A stretch of 64,000 bases of DNA from an uncultured Opitutaceae bacterium (GTDB lineage Bacteria > Verrucomicrobiota > Verrucomicrobiia > Opitutales > Opitutaceae). The notes under the pieces are model-generated. The model was not told where the DNA came from. It worked only from the letters and a program-made list of their open reading frames with translations, and made no database searches. A program made the translations under genes and the position numbers. Of the stretch, positions 31,998 to 40,404 are shown in pieces (the first letter of the stretch is position 1; each line of letters opens with the position of its first letter). The stretch is taken from assembly GCA_903890485.1 (NCBI GenBank), contig CAITBM010000009.1:62001-126000 (forward strand), given 5' to 3'.

Positions 31998-32107
31998 CAG
32001 GTTAAGGGCGGCTAAGGCCCTCCAGGCGCACCGTAGAAGTGCGTAAACTCCTTGATTCGAAACACATTGCCCCGGGTGGACCGAAACGCTTAGTTCCTTT
32101 GGGCCGC

Positions 32108-35100
32108 ATGGACCACGTCAACACATTGCCCCGCCGGTCCTGGATCGAGCGGGTATCGTTAGCGCTCGCCGTGATCCTCATGGGCATTGGGCTCGTGTCC
32201 ATTTTCTGCTGGTTCCTCCGGCTCGACCGGTTGGTTGAGCCGATCGAACACAAGGCCCCGATCATGTTCAACGAGGGGCTGTGCTTCCTGGCGCTGGGAG
32301 CCGCCCTGTTGGGCCGTGAACTCAAGTCCCCGAGGGCAGCATGGGCTGCGCTGGGAGCGGCCGTGGTCGGCGGCCTGACCGCCCTGGAGGGAATCCTGGG
32401 CATCGACCTAAAAATCGACGAGCTGCTCGCGCGAGACAGCCTCCTGGTGGACACGGTGCAGCCCGGCCGCGGCTCGGTCATCGCAGCCTGCTGCATCACG
32501 GCCGCGGGCGTCGCCCTGTTCTGGAGGATTTCGGAAAAGCGTGCCCGGGAACGCCTCTTTGCTGAGGCCGTGTCGGGCTCGGTCCTGGCCTCCGTGGGTT
32601 TTTCGACGATCCTCGGATACGCCTTCGAGTTGCCCGCCGTCTACAACTGGGGGACGAACACGGCCCTCTCCGTGGCAACCGCGGCCGCGCTCCTGGCGGC
32701 AGGCCTCGCCCTTCTGGTGCTCGCCTGGCGCGAGAGCCTCAAGGACGAGGGCGGCCCCCCGGCCTGGATGCCGATGCCCTTCGTCATCGGGAGCCTGACC
32801 CTGACCCTCATCTTCTGGATCGGGCTCAGGGACAGCGAGATGTCCAATCTGGACGCGAAGACCGCCGCCGCCGCCGATCAGGTCGCCACGAGCATCAAGT
32901 CCGCCATCGACCAGCAGATGAACATGCTGGACCGGATGGCGCGCAACGGCGCCGACAACCCGGACACGAACCTCGTCGCCTGGCAAACCGACGCGGCGTC
33001 GCTCTTTGACGATGCCAAGGAACTCGGGTGCGACTCGATCTCTCTTATCGACGTCGTCGACACCCGGCTCCTCACCCGCTGGGTCTACCCAACCCCGGAC
33101 AAGGCCCCGGCGGTCAAATTTGACCACGCGCTCGACACCCGCCGGCGCGAGGCAATTGAGACTGCACGGGCAAAGAACGGGCCCGAGCTGACCTCGCTCT
33201 CGGAGGCTATCGGCAAGAAGAAGGGCTACGGCTTCGTGATTTACGCCCCGATAGGCAGGAGCGGAAGCCCCAGTCACTACGCGGCCGCCGAGTACATCTA
33301 CGCCCGCTTCTTCGCCACGCTCTACAAGCAGCTCAAGCTCGGCCCGAGCTACGAACTGTTCGTGACCGTGGGCCGCACCGAGGTCTACAGCTCGGTCCTC
33401 TCGGAAAAGGGAACGGTCTCCCTGCCCAAGGAGAAGGTCTACCCCAACCTCTTCGACCAAAGGGTGAGGCTCGGCCTCTCGCCAACCCCCGAGCTCCTGA
33501 TCTCAAACAAGCGCTACCTGCCCGAGATGGCCCTAGTCGGCGGCCTGGCGATCACCCTCCTCCTGGGCTTCACCCTGCACCTTGCCCGCCGCGCAAGGGC
33601 CGGCCAGTATCTTTCCGAGCTCTCGAACAAGCGCCTCGTTGCCGAGAACGAGGAGAGGCGGCGAATCGAGGCAAGGCTCAAGGTCTCCGACGAGCGCCTC
33701 AGGCTCGCGCTCGACTCCACGCAGATCGGCATCTTCGAATGGAACGTTCCCAAGGGCCACGTCTACTACAGCCCGGGCCTCTGGGGTCTGCTCGGCTACG
33801 AGCATGCGCGGATGCCCTCGACGCTCGAGGTGTGGCAATCCCTGATCCATCCCGACGACATCCCGGTCTACCGCAAGCGGACCGAGTCCCAGCTCAACGG
33901 CGTCGCCTCCTTCATCGACCCGGAGTACCGGGTGAGGGCCCGCACGGGTGACTGGCGCTGGGTGTACATGCGTTCGAAGTCCGTGCTGGCGGGCCCCAAC
34001 GGCAGGCCCACCCGCATCATCGGCACGGTCCAGGACATCACGACCCGTCGCGAGTCCGAGCAGGCCCTCAGGGAAAGCCAGGCCGAGGCGCGCAAGCTTT
34101 CGCTCGTGGCCTCGAAGACGGACAACCTGGTCGTGATCGGCTCTGCGGACGGGAAGATCGAGTGGGTGAACAGCGCCTTCTGCCGCGTGATGGAGTACAC
34201 CCTGGAGGAGGTTGTCGGAAAGGACCCCGGTACCCTACTGAGCGGCCCCGACACCGACGCCGCACAGTCCGACCTGATCCGGAACGAAATCGCCAAGGGC
34301 AACGGCACGAACACCGAGATTGTCCACTACTCCAAGTCCGGCCGGAAGTACTACCTGCACCTGGAGGTCCAGGTCGTGCGCAACCAGGCGGGCCAAGTCG
34401 AGAATTTCATCGCGATCGAGAATGACATCACCTCCAGGGTTGAGACCGAGAACCAGCTCAGGAGGGCCAAGGCGGAGGCGGACTTCGCCTCGCGCGCCAA
34501 GAGCGAATTCCTGGCCTCGATGTCGCACGAGATCCGGACGCCCATGAACGGCGTCATCGGCATGACGAGCATCCTGACCGAGACGTCGCTCACCGCCGAG
34601 CAGCGCGACTTCGTGAACACGATCCGCACCTCGGGCGAGGCGCTGCTCACGATCATCAACGACATCCTCGACTTCTCGAAGATCGAGTCGGGAAAGATGG
34701 AGCTCGAGAAGGCCCCCTTCGAGCTGGCCCTGTGCGTCGAGGAGGCGCTCGACCTCTTCGCCCCCACGGCGGCCGCGAAGCGCCTGGAGATCGGCTACCA
34801 CGTGGAGCCCGACGTACCGCCGTGGATCGTCGGGGACGTGACCCGGCTGAGGCAGATCATCGTCAACCTGGTCAACAACGCCATCAAGTTCACCCCGACG
34901 GGAAGCATCTCGATTCAGGTTCGGCGGATTCCACTGGATGCGTCCGTGCGGGCGACGCCCGCCGGCAGGATGAGGCTGGAGATCACCGTGCAGGACACGG
35001 GCATCGGCATTCCCCCGGACCGCATCGACCGCCTCTTCAAGGCGTTCAGCCAGGTGGACTCCTCCACGACGCGCAAGTACGTCGGGACGGGCCTCGGCCT

Positions 35101-36064
35101 GGCGATCTGCCAGCGCCTCTGCCAGCTGATGAACGGCGACATCCGGGTCGAAAGCTCCCCCGGCAAGGGATCGACCTTCACGGTGGCGATCATGACGGAC
35201 GCGGCGCAGCGCCCCCCGGAGATCTCAGCTCCCCCATTCGCCGGAATCGACCTGAAGGGATGCCTCGCGCTTTGCATCGAGGACAACCCGATCACTCGGG
35301 CGCGCCTGAGGACACTCTTCGACCTCCTGGGTGCCACCTGCGCCTTCGCGAACGACTCCGAGGCCGCGATCGAGCTGTCCCCGACCCTCCCCACCCAGCC
35401 TGCAATCTTGATCCTCGACCTGCCGGAGTTCGAGAGCCAGCGCGCCCTGGACCTCGCCGCCGCGATCAAGTGCCCGAGGCTCGTGCTCTTCCGGCTTGGC
35501 CAGATCCCGCCGCCGGCTCCGAACGACGGGCTTCCCTACGCTACCCTATCCAAGCCGATCAAGACCGCGCCCTTCTACCAGGCGCTCGCCCTCCTCGGCC
35601 ACCGCACGGGAAGCGGCGGCATCGTCGTTCAGTCGCGCAACGAGACCCGCCCCATTGCAGAGGAGATCCCGCTCAGCGTGCTCCTGGCGGAGGACAACGC
35701 CGTCAACCAGAAGGTGGCGCTGCGCTTCCTGGAACGCATGGGGTACAACGCCGATGCGGTCGGAAACGGCCTGGAGGCCGTCAATGCCTTCCAAAACCGA
35801 GACTACGACCTGGTGCTCATGGATCTCCAGATGCCCGAGATGGACGGCCTGGAGGCGAGCCGCAGGATCCGAAGGACACTCCCGGCGGATCGCCAGCCGA
35901 AGATCATCGCGCTCACGGCCAACGCCATGCAGGGCGACCGCGAGATCTGCCTGGATGCGGGAATGGACGACTACATCTCGAAGCCCGTCAAGATGCACGA
36001 GATCGTGGCGGCCATTCGGCGCCAGTTCCCGAAAGGAAGGATCGTTCCGACGGCTAAGGAGTGA
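32108..36064 (+). CDS. Hybrid sensor histidine kinase with CHASE-like, two PAS and two receiver domains
   Basis: 1318 residues from ATG 32108 (GTG 32039 gives 1341). About seven hydrophobic helices span the first 255 residues, followed by an extracytoplasmic CHASE-like domain ('SDAASL'-type region to ~470) and another helix (ALVGGLAITLLLGFTL). Then come two PAS domains (about 525-640 and 665-770), HisKA with the phospho-accepting His807 in SHEIRTPMNGVIGM, and an HATPase domain ('NLVNNAIKFT', 'DTGIGIP', 'GTGLGLAIC'). The first receiver (about 1075-1190) keeps its Asp and Lys but lacks the usual Thr/Ser; the second has Asp1239 in LMDLQMPEMDG and SKPVKMHE. Signal and output are unknown. It overlaps the convergent sulfatase gene by 11 nt. 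Confidence 0.9.
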   Translation: MDHVNTLPRRSWIERVSLALAVILMGIGLVSIFCWFLRLDRLVEPIEHKAPIMFNEGLCFLALGAALLGRELKSPRAAWAALGAAVVGGLTALEGILGIDLKIDELLARDSLLVDTVQPGRGSVIAACCITAAGVALFWRISEKRARERLFAEAVSGSVLASVGFSTILGYAFELPAVYNWGTNTALSVATAAALLAAGLALLVLAWRESLKDEGGPPAWMPMPFVIGSLTLTLIFWIGLRDSEMSNLDAKTAAAADQVATSIKSAIDQQMNMLDRMARNGADNPDTNLVAWQTDAASLFDDAKELGCDSISLIDVVDTRLLTRWVYPTPDKAPAVKFDHALDTRRREAIETARAKNGPELTSLSEAIGKKKGYGFVIYAPIGRSGSPSHYAAAEYIYARFFATLYKQLKLGPSYELFVTVGRTEVYSSVLSEKGTVSLPKEKVYPNLFDQRVRLGLSPTPELLISNKRYLPEMALVGGLAITLLLGFTLHLARRARAGQYLSELSNKRLVAENEERRRIEARLKVSDERLRLALDSTQIGIFEWNVPKGHVYYSPGLWGLLGYEHARMPSTLEVWQSLIHPDDIPVYRKRTESQLNGVASFIDPEYRVRARTGDWRWVYMRSKSVLAGPNGRPTRIIGTVQDITTRRESEQALRESQAEARKLSLVASKTDNLVVIGSADGKIEWVNSAFCRVMEYTLEEVVGKDPGTLLSGPDTDAAQSDLIRNEIAKGNGTNTEIVHYSKSGRKYYLHLEVQVVRNQAGQVENFIAIENDITSRVETENQLRRAKAEADFASRAKSEFLASMSHEIRTPMNGVIGMTSILTETSLTAEQRDFVNTIRTSGEALLTIINDILDFSKIESGKMELEKAPFELALCVEEALDLFAPTAAAKRLEIGYHVEPDVPPWIVGDVTRLRQIIVNLVNNAIKFTPTGSISIQVRRIPLDASVRATPAGRMRLEITVQDTGIGIPPDRIDRLFKAFSQVDSSTTRKYVGTGLGLAICQRLCQLMNGDIRVESSPGKGSTFTVAIMTDAAQRPPEISAPPFAGIDLKGCLALCIEDNPITRARLRTLFDLLGATCAFANDSEAAIELSPTLPTQPAILILDLPEFESQRALDLAAAIKCPRLVLFRLGQIPPPAPNDGLPYATLSKPIKTAPFYQALALLGHRTGSGGIVVQSRNETRPIAEEIPLSVLLAEDNAVNQKVALRFLERMGYNADAVGNGLEAVNAFQNRDYDLVLMDLQMPEMDGLEASRRIRRTLPADRQPKIIALTANAMQGDREICLDAGMDDYISKPVKMHEIVAAIRRQFPKGRIVPTAKE

Positions 36065-37247
36065 GCAGGCCCAGGAGCGAGCGGATCTCCGCGGCGTGCC
36101 GCGGGTCGCCCACCAGGTTGCTTGTCTCCAGGGGATCGCTCTCGAGGTTGAAGTAGAGCCACGGGACGCCGGACCCATCCACGACGAGCTTTCGGCCCGC
36201 AGTGCGGATCCCGTCCCAGACCCGGTCGCACTGGTCGGGCAGCGGGACCACCGTGGGCATCGATATTCGCGAAGAGGACTGGGGCGGCGACCATCCGTCC
36301 AGTCCATCAGCCCAGGCGCGCGCCAGGCTGGGAAGCTCAACGAGGGAGACCGGGGCATCCCGGAACCGCCGGTCCACAGGGCCCCTGACGACCAGCGGGA
36401 CCCGGATGCTCTCCTCGTGGGGCCATCCCTTTCGGAACAACCCGTGCGAGCCGTGCATGTCTCCGTGGACCGAGGTCGCAACGACCAAGGTCTGAACGGG
36501 AAGACCCCCTATGAGGGAGCCGATCGCACGGTCAGTTGCCTCGATGTGCGCGTAGTACCCGCTGAGTTCACGGCGGGCCCTCTCCTGGACCGCCGGATCC
36601 CCCGGCACGTTCCCGCGCAGGAGGATCAGGGCGGGGTCCGGGCGCGAGGGGCCGGGGCACGGCGCGTCGTAGGGAGGGTGAGGCGCCTCCAGGCTCACGA
36701 CGGCAAACCAAGGGGACCGCAGGGAACCGAGGGCCTCAAGCGCACGGCGACAGACCACGTCGCTCTGGTAGCCCTCAAAGCGGACGGGCTCGGGAAGCCG
36801 GGTTCCATGGAGCCAGGGATCGTTCAGCTGGAACCCGCTCTCGAAGCCCTCCCAGAAGGTGAATCCACCCCGGTTCGCCTCGGGGACGACCATTCTCGCG
36901 TGGGCGTCGCCCACAAGCTTCTCGCCCCTGTCCCTGTTCGCCAGGTGCCATTTTCCGAAGAAGGCCGTGGCATACGAGCGTCCGTTGAGCTCGTGGGCCA
37001 GGGTGCGGGCCCCCACCGGCAGGGGGTCAAAGTAGTCCCGGATCCCGTTTTCCGGGGAGCGCACGCCAGTCAGGAGCGCCGCCCGGGCCTGGGGACCGAA
37101 GGGGTGCGGTGTCACCGCCTGGGTGAAGGAGACGCCGGCTTCCGCCAGGGCGTCCATCGCCGGCGTACGGGCGTTAACATCCCCCGCGTGCCCCAACGCC
37201 TGCGCCCTCCACTGGGTGGTCACGATCCATAGGATGTTCGGGGGCAT
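36054..37247 (-). CDS. Sulfatase-fold protein lacking key catalytic residues (probable pseudoenzyme)
   Basis: 397 residues with the sulfatase/alkaline-phosphatase fold: start PPNILWIVTTQWRAQALGH, 'FFGKWHLA', 'VVSLEAPHPPYD', 'HGDMHGSHGLFRKGWPHEES', 'IRVPLVVRGP'. Three normally essential positions are changed. The N-terminal metal Asp pair (TDQQR type) reads TTQW (Thr11). The formylglycine motif C/S-x-P-x-R reads PHPFGPQAR (residues 47-55) with no Cys or Ser. The metal Asp before HG reads SVHG (Val260). Lys99, His101, His190, His261 and Lys273 are kept. The fold is probably intact but sulfate-ester cleavage by the usual mechanism is not possible. No signal peptide is seen, so it is cytoplasmic. 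Confidence 0.85.
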   Translation of the reverse strand: MPPNILWIVTTQWRAQALGHAGDVNARTPAMDALAEAGVSFTQAVTPHPFGPQARAALLTGVRSPENGIRDYFDPLPVGARTLAHELNGRSYATAFFGKWHLANRDRGEKLVGDAHARMVVPEANRGGFTFWEGFESGFQLNDPWLHGTRLPEPVRFEGYQSDVVCRRALEALGSLRSPWFAVVSLEAPHPPYDAPCPGPSRPDPALILLRGNVPGDPAVQERARRELSGYYAHIEATDRAIGSLIGGLPVQTLVVATSVHGDMHGSHGLFRKGWPHEESIRVPLVVRGPVDRRFRDAPVSLVELPSLARAWADGLDGWSPPQSSSRISMPTVVPLPDQCDRVWDGIRTAGRKLVVDGSGVPWLYFNLESDPLETSNLVGDPRHAAEIRSLLGLLTP

Positions 37248-37342: not shown

Positions 37343-38734
37343 TCACTGCAGCTCGATGGGGAGCTGCATGATCCGCGACGAGAGTGAATCGATCAGGGAG
37401 GCCGTGTGCTGGCCGGGCTTCTCGTCGCCCGTGAACAGGGTCGCCGTGGGGGCAAAATTTCCCAGAAGGACGCAGTAGTCGTTGTTCACCATGATGCCCA
37501 GCAGTTCCCCGGTCTTGCTGAAGACAAGGTCGCCGCGAGTCGGCGCAAACTCGCCGAAGAGCCGCTTGAAAATCCGGTTGTCGACCCGGACATATCCCCG
37601 GTGCTCGGGGTCGATCTTGAACCCCAGCTGGCCGTAGCCATTGCCTGCGCCGCTGATCAGGACTGCCTCCGGGAACTTGAAGGGGTCGGCAGCCAGCGGG
37701 TAAACCTTTGCACCCAAGGCCGCGACCTGCCGCGCATCAACCGGAATCACCACGACCCTGGGGTCCGCCTCGAGGAACTGGACCTGCGCGGCGTTGGACC
37801 TGTAGTCCGGGGCGCGGTCGAAACGGACAGAGATCTTCTCCCAGTCCGAGCCGATCTCCCTGAGGGAGAATGGGGTGTCCTCGACCTCGAGGAGCGCGTA
37901 GACTTGCCGGCCATCGGTCGTGAACACGGTCTTTGACTCGCGCTCCCGGGTGTTCTTTCCGAACAGCCCCTTGCGGGTGGCCGAGAACGAGGCCCCGACC
38001 CGGTTGGCGAGAAAGTCGTTGTAGAGCACGTTCGGTGAAATGGGCCGGTTGTCCCGGATCTCGCGGGTGAGCGCACCCGAGTTCTCCGCCAGCTGCCCGA
38101 CTCCCTGCGCCAGCTGGTTGGTGGCCTGCTCGACCTTGACCCTCTCGGCGCGCTCGGTCTGCACCTGGCCGGCAAGGTCGCTAGCGCGGTTCGCCAGGTC
38201 CTGCTTCTCCCTTTCGCTGACCGCCACCGCGACGGTCAGGCCCTCGATCTGGCGTCGCGCCTCGGCCTGAGCCTTCTCCAGGGCGGCGAGAGCCTGTTTC
38301 TGCCGCTCGGCCTCGGCCTTCTTGTCCTCGAGCTCGCGCTGCAGCTGGGCAAGCTCGCTCCGGGTGAGTGAATTTTCCTGGGTGACGCCCTGGTACCTCA
38401 TGTTCAGGTCGGCCTGGGACCGCTGGGTGTCGACCAACTGGGCCGTGAGCCTCTGGCTCTCGGACTGCAGCTGGCCGAGGGTGCGCTCCCGGGCGGCGAG
38501 CGTCTGGTCGGACGACTGGAGCTTCTGCTCGAGCGCCTGCCGGGCGATCTGTTCCTCGGTGAGCGACTGCTTCATCGCCTCGACCAGGTCCTGGTCCTTC
38601 GTTGCCGCGTTGGCGGAAATCTCGTTCACCGGAGGCTGCCGCGGTCGGACGGGCTCCGCCCGCTCCCACCGCGTGAGCGCGATGAGGTTGAGGAAGAGGA
38701 AGTCTACGATGAAAAGGAGGAGCGTCTTGTTCAT
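37343..38734 (-). CDS. Coiled-coil membrane protein with acidic transmembrane residue; MotB/TolR-like partner candidate
   Basis: 463 residues. One N-terminal helix, NKTLLLFIVDFLFLNLIAL, holds a buried acidic residue (Asp11), placed as in ExbD/TolR/MotB (pattern FIDxxLxLLI). A long coiled coil covers about residues 50-225 (repeated LQREL, EAERQKQAL, AQAEARRQIE type heptads). The C-terminal 235 residues are a beta-rich globular domain; 'RGDLVFSKTGELLGIMVNND' recalls the last half of a trypsin-like fold but without a catalytic serine. Its ATG overlaps the stop of the upstream polytopic gene (ATGA). Together the two look like a proton-channel stator pair. No homologous family of known function is recognised; the reading is inference. 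Confidence 0.6.
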   Translation of the reverse strand: MNKTLLLFIVDFLFLNLIALTRWERAEPVRPRQPPVNEISANAATKDQDLVEAMKQSLTEEQIARQALEQKLQSSDQTLAARERTLGQLQSESQRLTAQLVDTQRSQADLNMRYQGVTQENSLTRSELAQLQRELEDKKAEAERQKQALAALEKAQAEARRQIEGLTVAVAVSEREKQDLANRASDLAGQVQTERAERVKVEQATNQLAQGVGQLAENSGALTREIRDNRPISPNVLYNDFLANRVGASFSATRKGLFGKNTRERESKTVFTTDGRQVYALLEVEDTPFSLREIGSDWEKISVRFDRAPDYRSNAAQVQFLEADPRVVVIPVDARQVAALGAKVYPLAADPFKFPEAVLISGAGNGYGQLGFKIDPEHRGYVRVDNRIFKRLFGEFAPTRGDLVFSKTGELLGIMVNNDYCVLLGNFAPTATLFTGDEKPGQHTASLIDSLSSRIMQLPIELQ

Positions 38735-40404
38735 AGCGCGACGGGCGCCGGGGTCTGCCTCTGGCCCTCAAGGATCAGGCGGCGCTTGAAGCCCCTCACA
38801 TGCCGGATCTTGACCAGGGCGACGCAGATGATGCCGAAGAGATTCGACGAGTAGGCGGCGAGCAGGTTGGGCTCGATGACCCCGACAACCTGGAGGACGA
38901 GGGCGGCCGCGGTTCCCATCATCCCGACGTACAGGCCGCTGTCGAAGAGGTTCTCCTCATTCTCCATGAGGCGCAGCTTGAGGGACGGTGATGCGTCCTG
39001 GCTCTCAATCTCACGGATCTTGCGGAGGCAGGCCATGTACATGGCGACCTGGAGGGCGGCGAATATGCCGATCGATACAAGTGTGGAGGTTTCCATAGTG
39101 ACGGGTTTTGAAGTCTGGGATGTTTTCTCAGCCTGGGTTGAGGTGGCTGCGAGCATGGGGATCGTTATCCTGAGCCGGTATTCGGAAGTGGGCGCCGCCT
39201 TCAGGAGGAAGGGTTCAGTGGCGACAATGAGAAGCGCCGACATGACGACCGCAAGGATGCCGGCCCGGGCGTGCTGCTGGGCCCCGCTCTCGCTCCTGCG
39301 CCCGGCCGGCTCCACGATCCAGAGGTCAAGGCCACGCAGCAGGAAAAACAGCCCGAGGAAGTAGCCCGCGTACTTGGCCGTCAGCATCAGCCGCGGATGC
39401 TCGAGCACGAGTGCGGCCGCTGCACCCATGGCCGGCCCTGGCGAGCGGTTCACGGGGACGGCTCGCTGCAGGAGTAGGTTCACGGCTCCCTGGCCCTCCG
39501 ACAGCGCCGTCTTCAGGTCCTCGGACCCGGCCTTGCCGAAACGAATCAGGTAGGTGGCGACGCGGTCGGCGGAATCGGAGAGGAGCGCGGCCGTGTAGAT
39601 GTACGGCAGCTGGTCGGGGGCCACCCGGGACAGGTGCGCGTATTCCCCCACGGTGCGGACGCTGTCAGTGCGCCTCAGGAGCTCAGAAAGCTGCGTCCAG
39701 TCGAGGCGGCGGCCGAGCGAGAGAAGGTCGAGGTAGAAGCCTTCGAGGTCGCCGAGTTCGTTGCGCTGCACCGCCGTTTCAGCGAGCGCCCGGACCTCGC
39801 GCTGCAGGGGCGGCGAGAGCCGCTCGCCCTGGTACAGGAGCCCCGTGAGGAGAATGAGCGCTTCGAGGGGCTGCCCGCCGGGCCTTGCTGCGGGAACGAA
39901 ACGGCCCGTCGAGGCGACGTCGTGGGTCTTAAGCACCGCCTGGACTCCGATGGATCCCGAGTTGGAGAGGTAGGTGCGCGCCGTCTCCCTCGCGTGGTCG
40001 GGGATCAGGAAGGTGACAACCGGGGTGCTCGCCGCATGCGGCGTCTTCTGACGCAGGTTGAAGAGGGGGTCCAGCGCAGGATCCCAGCCGCCCCAGGCGA
40101 GAAGGGAGGGTTGCCTTGAGGAGACGTCCGACACGGCGCGCTCCAAGGCGGGGGCCCGGGGGTCGCCGATTCCCTTGGCGACATCAAGGACGAGGACGGC
40201 GGGTCCTATCTTTTCCGAGTCCACCAGGTCGCGGCCGAAGGCTGCGACCGAGGGCGTCCCCGCGCCGGCCGAGCGCAGGAGGCCGCGGCTCACGGACTTG
40301 AGGCTCACCGGCAGCAGCCAGGCCAGAATCGCAAGCACCACGCCCACGGCCACGAGCGCGGGGGCTGAAGCGGGGATCCTATGGGCCTCGTCTGGGGGAC
40401 TCAT
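38731..40404 (-). CDS. Polytopic membrane protein, MotA/TolQ/ExbB-like C-terminus
   Basis: 557 residues from ATG 40404 (frame open to 40467). One N-terminal helix (ALVAVGVVLAILAWLLPVSL) and a long soluble part (about 40-330) come first. Then four helices: LTAKYAGYFLGLFFLLRGL, ILAVVMSALLIVATEPFLL, LVSIGIFAALQVAMYMACL, and a final hairpin. That hairpin reads LYVGMMGTAAALVLQVVG (GxxGT at 494-498) then NLLAAYSSNLFGIICVALV and a basic tail, which is the arrangement of TolQ/ExbB/MotA helices (GLLGTVxG ... ALxxTxxGlxvAI). It is translationally coupled to a partner with an acidic transmembrane residue. Divergent from def with 69 nt between. Function unknown; a proton-driven motor is the working idea. 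Confidence 0.6.
   Translation of the reverse strand: MSPPDEAHRIPASAPALVAVGVVLAILAWLLPVSLKSVSRGLLRSAGAGTPSVAAFGRDLVDSEKIGPAVLVLDVAKGIGDPRAPALERAVSDVSSRQPSLLAWGGWDPALDPLFNLRQKTPHAASTPVVTFLIPDHARETARTYLSNSGSIGVQAVLKTHDVASTGRFVPAARPGGQPLEALILLTGLLYQGERLSPPLQREVRALAETAVQRNELGDLEGFYLDLLSLGRRLDWTQLSELLRRTDSVRTVGEYAHLSRVAPDQLPYIYTAALLSDSADRVATYLIRFGKAGSEDLKTALSEGQGAVNLLLQRAVPVNRSPGPAMGAAAALVLEHPRLMLTAKYAGYFLGLFFLLRGLDLWIVEPAGRRSESGAQQHARAGILAVVMSALLIVATEPFLLKAAPTSEYRLRITIPMLAATSTQAEKTSQTSKPVTMETSTLVSIGIFAALQVAMYMACLRKIREIESQDASPSLKLRLMENEENLFDSGLYVGMMGTAAALVLQVVGVIEPNLLAAYSSNLFGIICVALVKIRHVRGFKRRLILEGQRQTPAPVAL

Follow-up and report, generated by a model that had tools for sequence, protein, structure and literature searches.

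A candidate family of divergent TolQR/ExbBD-like stators with a protease-fold head in Verrucomicrobiota

We analysed a stretch of 64,000 nucleotides from an uncultured Opitutaceae bacterium (GenBank assembly GCA_903890485.1, contig CAITBM010000009.1, positions 62,001 to 126,000), hereafter the window, and focused on two coupled minus-strand genes, called A and B here, which probably encode an ion-driven stator of the inner membrane. Both open reading frames (ORFs) lie where an original prediction, made from the sequence alone, had placed them, and the 4-base ATGA overlap was verified. The C-terminal motifs that it had read in A are also present (GLYVGMMGT, residues 490-498; AYSSNLFGI, residues 517-525), and the lengths that it had quoted for the soluble part of A (290 residues) and for the coiled coil and end domain of B (175 and 235 residues) roughly match AlphaFold2 (AF2) models of the two proteins. 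The features of the locus, in window coordinates, are as follows.

38731-40404, minus strand: gene A, 557 residues, a stator-A-like polytopic membrane protein with counterparts in 42 of 57 genomes
37343-38734, minus strand: gene B, 463 residues, stator-B-like, with a single span
38731-38734, minus strand: ATGA shared by the stop of A and the start of B, a 4-base overlap
39400-40287, minus strand: helical soluble domain of A, residues ~40-335 (AF2 model), predicted periplasmic
38758-39090, minus strand: TolQ/ExbB-like core of A, helices 439-468, 489-507 and 514-549 (AF2 and rank test)
38911-38913, minus strand: codon of Thr498 of A, aligned with TolQ Thr145 and ExbB Thr148
38830-38856, minus strand: AYSSNLFGI of A, residues 517-525, aligned with TolQ ALIATAIGL (Thr178)
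38702-38704, minus strand: codon of Asp11 of B, predicted ion-binding residue
38051-38614, minus strand: coiled coil of B, residues 41-228 (AF2 helices; matches to coiled-coil proteins)
37433-38041, minus strand: HtrA/trypsin-like end domain of B, residues 232-434 (Foldseek, VIA), likely a pseudoprotease in the window
36054-37247, minus strand: sulfatase-like gene downstream of B (PF00884, E 7.9e-29), a candidate linked gene of uncertain membership

The pair is not a chance finding of ORFs, because A was matched in 42 and B in 43 of the 57 genomes searched, the window's own being counted. Of 387 genomes of the phylum, 128 were matched by a profile built from 27 A sequences; among these 128, at least two are chance hits to pilin-like N-termini (G191 and G211, loci L212 and L213) and one match (G355) is broken by stop codons. 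Besides the window's genome, A occurs in 30 of 36 genomes of the same family (in one of these 30 the match is interrupted by stops); the remaining genomes of the order comprise 16 with A and 10, all of them small (1.3-2.3 Mb), without it. Almost all matching genomes carry a single A match. The named matching loci are mostly labelled Opitutaceae, Opitutae or Opitutales, the others just Verrucomicrobia or bacterium, and a search of plasmids with one short A (defined below) returned no match.

A occurs in two forms: a long one (~550-600 residues), found in Opitutales, the window's order, as well as in three families of other classes (f39, f50 and f85), and a short one (~170-220 residues), found in families f35, f36, f40, f43, f59 and f66 of other classes, which corresponds solely to the last 100-190 residues of long A. 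Long A proteins from f39, f50 and f85 (L190-L194) share with window A the core and part of the soluble domain, and their B partners begin MRPSLLVIIMDF or similar. Among 273 A cores surveyed, repeats of the same gene included, 265 have a candidate B downstream; no B adjoins the A fragment L151, L218 or L069. B follows A in 194 distinct pairs (121 long, 73 short) that had passed a choice of B start favouring Asp, with an exact 4-nt overlap in 102 and a spacing of -8 to +30 nt in 168. Locus L069 is an exception to this pairing: in its genome (G051), A lies at C2:251626-253236 and B at C2:323089-324252 (L074), about 70 kb apart.

The N-terminus of B, MNKTLLLFIVDFLFLNL, contains Asp11 within a hydrophobic helix that starts 3-5 residues after initiation. 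In the AF2 model of B (predicted local distance difference test score, pLDDT, 80), a helix spans residues 2-23, two long helices follow at 41-120 and at 125-228, and residues 246-434 form a beta-rich domain. Conservation of Asp11 in orthologues, which the original prediction had singled out for checking, was observed in all 27 aligned B proteins picked by homology and in 42 of 43 rows of the larger set from which these were drawn. In that larger set at least one gene occurs twice, and the exception, L071, which the 27-row set leaves out, has a wrong start; an alternative start restores the Asp. These two figures are independent of start choice. Asp11 is also found in 69 of 69 Opitutaceae B proteins and in 45 of 45 B proteins from short-A loci, sets in which start selection favoured frames having an Asp close to residue 11 and so biases the conservation (68 of the 69 rows had passed it). 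The N-terminal Asp motif was matched in 200 of 205 distinct B proteins; three of the five misses keep the Asp with different flanks, and two (L003, L005) were picked in the wrong frame. As a rough control, 146 distinct hydrophobic helices at N-termini were compared; 12 carried an inner Asp or Glu, four of these 12 belonging to the B family itself.

The AF2 model of A (pLDDT 81) consists of a helix at residues 13-29, an all-helical domain at 40-335, helices at 337-363 and 374-396, and then the three core helices listed above. The helical soluble domain is predicted to sit in the periplasm, judging from the positive charges of the other loops; short A has four predicted helices, with its N-terminus inside as judged by charge. 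The cytoplasmic loop between the first and second core helices is about 20-30 residues long in both model and alignments. Gln452 (Gln73 in short A), in the helix preceding the motifs, is invariant; Thr498 is invariant in the 27-row A alignment, with Ser in some short A; and a second Thr (AYxSTxxGI) is invariant across the 73 short A, its position being occupied by Asn521 in window A and near relatives.

The kinship of this core was assessed by a rank test, which was added because a comparison with an ExbB set against only four decoy families was insufficient. A profile of the 73 short A was scored against 145 single membrane-protein sequences, 48 of them known family members and 97 decoys; the members are related to one another, so that no p-value is to be taken literally. 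Escherichia coli TolQ ranked first (29.6) and ExbB second (25.1), MotA came 34th of 145, and the area under the curve (AUC) for members versus decoys was 0.951. The alignment sets PLYFGLLGS of short A (mostly GLFGT) on PYIGLFGT145 of TolQ, and, under the relaxed settings that this second match needed, AYASTAMGI on ALIATAIGL, with Thr on Thr178. A separate hhalign run of the A and ExbB alignments gave the same two motif registers at default settings. The residues of window A at the positions of TolQ Thr145 and Thr178 are Thr498 and Asn521. In passages of a published account, these two threonines of TolQ lie near Asp23 of TolR and form a polar ring (PMC12215075).

Several results weigh against this kinship. 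In the same rank test, several of the known family members (ranks 3 and 5) owe their scores to other segments, and decoys were placed at ranks 7, 25 and 27; with a wider core profile, TolQ was third, ExbB eighth and MotA 115th, with an AUC of 0.927. One decoy kept in all counts, L028, is a truncated A; it is the top decoy for the wider profile and lowers its AUC. The hhalign probabilities for A against stators are low (6-29%), although the register is consistent, and global mode gave no sensible alignment of A with ExbB. Window A matches no Pfam family at E 1, hence not MotA_ExbB (PF01618), a family that is also absent from the 25 commonest of 108 Pfam families listed for the 73 short A. Scans of A and B with Pfam, NCBIfam and PADLOC yielded no stator match above noise, the tolQ model TIGR02796 was matched by 2 of 73 short A with a best E of 0.075, and the host genome's six PF01618 and six ExbD matches are genes other than A and B. 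Profile searches of the PDB with A returned no stator and nothing convincing; likewise, no stator is among the best 50 matches listed by Foldseek or by VIA for the A model, and the best VIA matches (OSCA, NCX and TMEM16, Z ~8) fall inside the tool's stated chance range. Finally, A has no counterpart of the conserved Pro187 of TolQ, and window A carries Asn521 where a second threonine would be expected. Because the hhalign probabilities stay low, the case for homology rests on the ranks and the register, which together suggest that the A core is a remote relative of the TolQ/ExbB core with paired polar residues. A last part of A unlike TolQ, which would have refuted the original prediction, did not emerge: TolQ and ExbB take the two top places among the 145 proteins in the sequence-profile test, the fold search of A being uninformative.

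Beyond its membrane helix, B extends as a coiled coil of 184 residues, which at 0.15 nm per residue gives about 27 nm and is therefore long enough to span a periplasm; the best 60 of 156 matches in a PDB profile search with B all fall in this part. The end domain had been claimed to match nothing known, a claim that did not survive structural comparison. Foldseek matched the domain to DegS and to human HtrA1 and HtrA3 with E values of 3.8e-6 to ~1e-4 and probability 1.00 (template modelling score by target 0.38 for the best match and 0.36-0.56 among the best 25), and VIA gave Z ~10-11 across ~170 residues. By these model comparisons the end domain is of the HtrA/DegS type, with a trypsin-like fold. 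In window B no residues remain for a PDZ domain after it, and in place of an ExbD or OmpA-like periplasmic domain, neither of which was matched by Pfam in B, there is the HtrA fold.

The computed properties of the pair are thus linked genes, a stator-like core with polar residues, a membrane Asp, a coiled coil and an HtrA-fold head. On this basis A and B probably form a new family of ion-driven inner-membrane stators resembling TolQR, ExbBD and GldLM; the original reading as a stator pair is supported by Asp11 (27 of 27) and by the TolQ and ExbB ranks, and the ion drive itself is inferred. Such a complex would consist of an A pentamer encircling a B dimer (A5B2, 5:2). Ions would flow past Asp11 of B, and the resulting turn or swing of B would be carried over ~27 nm by the coiled coil to the end domain, which would dock on a periplasmic or outer-membrane partner and not cut it. 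Because the cytoplasmic loop of A is so short, the work most likely takes place outside the cytoplasm, as with GldLM, Ton and Tol; in the model, the loop looks too short for a MotA-style drive in the cytoplasm.

Among the closest known systems are TolQR and ExbBD, with which the pair shares motifs like GLFGT and AxxxTAxG in the two helices of the A core, a B subunit whose single helix holds a conserved Asp, and adjoining genes. The pair differs from them in the four predicted helices of short A with the N-terminus inside by charge, in the loop of A (~20-30 residues, whereas that of TolQ and ExbB has about 90), in the missing Pro187 counterpart, in the HtrA-like head of B on a long coiled coil, and in matching neither PF01618 nor PF02472. 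The likeness to MotAB lies in the four helices of short A and in the start of the B helix, which is ADF in MotB and CDF, VDF or LDV in B; in contrast to MotAB, A is without a cytoplasmic torque domain, no OmpA-like domain was found in B, and MotA ranked just 34th of 145. A long periplasmic B shaft with an end domain recalls GldLM and PorLM, but the shaft of B is a coiled coil whereas theirs is a helix bundle plus immunoglobulin (Ig) domains, and at E 1 neither A nor B had a GldL or GldM model among its listed matches. With HtrA and DegS the pair shares the fold of the B end domain; unlike them, window B is without the aligned His and Ser and without GxSGG. Passages of a survey of MotAB homologues describe generic ion transporters whose cytoplasmic domains have two or three helices and whose extensions are diverse, and those passages mention neither the A-B family nor a protease-like head (PMC12505986). 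We found no publication on the A-B pair, judging on titles and abstract openings in a search that left subscription journals mostly uncovered.

In the window, the pair is flanked on one side by genes for a divergent peptide deformylase and for a cobalamin adenosyltransferase, and the sulfatase-like gene follows B. Its product has no obvious signal peptide and carries TPHPFGxxAR in place of the formylglycine (FGly) motif, with Gly at the position of the Cys, a pattern seen in 42 of 45 matches. In the window's order the gene shares the strand of B and lies downstream of it in 44 of 44 matches. It is found at 34 of the 88 long-A loci that have at least 2 kb beyond B, a count that takes in some genomes twice. 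The window gene is read as a pseudo-sulfatase that adjoins the pair, its belonging to the system being uncertain. Convergent with it, at 32039-36064 on the plus strand, is a gene for a very large protein that appears by eye to be a hybrid sensor kinase with receiver domains.

At short-A loci another neighbour recurs. In a survey of loci numbered 190 upwards, a Ser/Thr kinase gene comes next after B at 50 of the 71 short-A loci with room for it (50 with, 21 without, and 2 without room). The linkage is concentrated in family f35, where 50 of 53 loci with room have the kinase, compared with 1 of 19 other short-A loci, as sorted by hand; the f35 count includes L285, classed as long since its ORF extends upstream, and five of these loci supplied the sequences for the kinase profile. 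No kinase was found next to B in the 15 long-A loci surveyed. All three kinases scanned have Pkinase and FGE-sulfatase domains, which to the eye are separated by a hydrophobic stretch, and the FGE-like domain is C-terminal (for example at L195, L197, L198, L200, L201 and L203). Against the GldK model, the kinase FGE domains scored 42.6 and 59.3 bits, below its cut-off of 350. In the catalytic loop, HRD is replaced by HCD or HGD in four of 12 kinases compared. It is a curious coincidence that FGE-like domains occur in the kinases at these loci while genes of sulfatase type adjoin the Opitutales pair.

The B end domain of the f35 relatives would likely have as its partner the periplasmic FGE-like part of the adjoining kinase. 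This would resemble GldLM and PorLM in having a part of FGE fold near the motor, PorK in their case and the kinase's domain here: according to passages of a published account, PorK has an FGE fold, and FGE folds dock in the type IX secretion ring that is joined to the PorLM motor (PMC12421860). The parallel between the PorKN ring and the kinase neighbour is one that we infer only by analogy. A bolder and doubtful idea is that a proton-driven rod is read out by the kinase, the protease-fold head probing the envelope and passing load to the FGE-like domain, so that the whole might be a signalling motor that senses force or the state of the envelope. The window's order differs from the kinase loci in that no kinase adjoins the pair and A has its large helical domain.

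The best surviving alternative to an ion-driven stator is that A and B form a passive sensor or scaffold spanning the envelope, in which Asp11 and the polar residues pack helices and no ions flow; the end domain would detect a periplasmic ligand and, in relatives, the adjoining kinase would be the output. DegS senses misfolded porins, so the HtrA fold of the end domain fits such a role, as do the FGE-domain kinases next to short-A pairs (50 of 71) and the lack of any stator model matching A. The conserved Asp and the positions matching TolQ Thr145 and Thr178, however, are proton-path residues in stators, and TolQ and ExbB take the top ranks in the profile test; we regard a passive device as rather unlikely.

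Still less probable is a role of B as a DegS-like protease tethered to the membrane and regulated by A, with activity in at least some members of the family. Beside the HtrA fold, this draws on Asp324, which is invariant in B, and on His283, present in 63 of 69 Opitutaceae B proteins; His283, Asp324 and Ser399 occur together in 47 of the 69, Ser399 being one residue off the aligned serine position, an offset within alignment error. The alignment with DegQ puts the serine of GNSGG on Arg400 of B, in a provisional register with a weak pairwise E of 0.05. Against it stand the residues themselves: window B has Glu283, Asp324, Thr399 and Arg400 at the triad positions, Ser stands at position 400 in just 1 of the 27 and 1 of the 69 aligned B proteins, and Lys399 occurs in 12 of the 69. 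Among 45 B proteins from short-A loci, a Ser stands in the four residues preceding GD in just 3, and the commonest His column is filled in 8; no GxSGG motif is present in the B stretches around position 399 that were compared. An active protease was rejected on these residues for the window and for the 45 B proteins of short-A type. The window's end domain is thus probably a pseudoprotease, its aligned His and Ser positions being occupied by Glu and Thr/Arg, while certain B relatives may have retained or lost protease activity.

ZorAB is a stator with extra parts, and the logic of stator plus effector is known from Zorya; even so, a role in phage defence as a Zorya-like stator, which the original prediction had raised, or as a Kiwa-like membrane pair finds nothing in its favour beyond weak KwaA matches to one model in 14 of 73 short A (best 8.4e-7), and is highly improbable given that no ZorA or ZorB model is listed for window A or B, that A occurs broadly (the 30 of 36 same-family genomes given above, one broken by stops) and that deformylase and sulfatase-like genes recur as neighbours. 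Kinship with KwaA was itself rejected: KwaA-like L347 and L348 scored 11.6 and 15.7 against the A profile, where the decoy median was 13.5.

The reading of A and B as an ion-driven stator would make them a divergent stator family whose new features are the head of B, the minimal core of A and, in one group of relatives, the kinase neighbour. Zorya is also among the few ion-driven 5:2 motors. Others, as listed in passages of a published account, are MotAB, ExbBD, TolQR, AglRQS and GldLM (PMC9389320). If the reading is true, A-B adds to these a 5:2 motor that was missed by the family models tried, with a motor part of only ~180 residues and a new output head. Its linkage to a kinase hints that stators can feed a kinase, and the family illustrates how such motors can escape model-based surveys.

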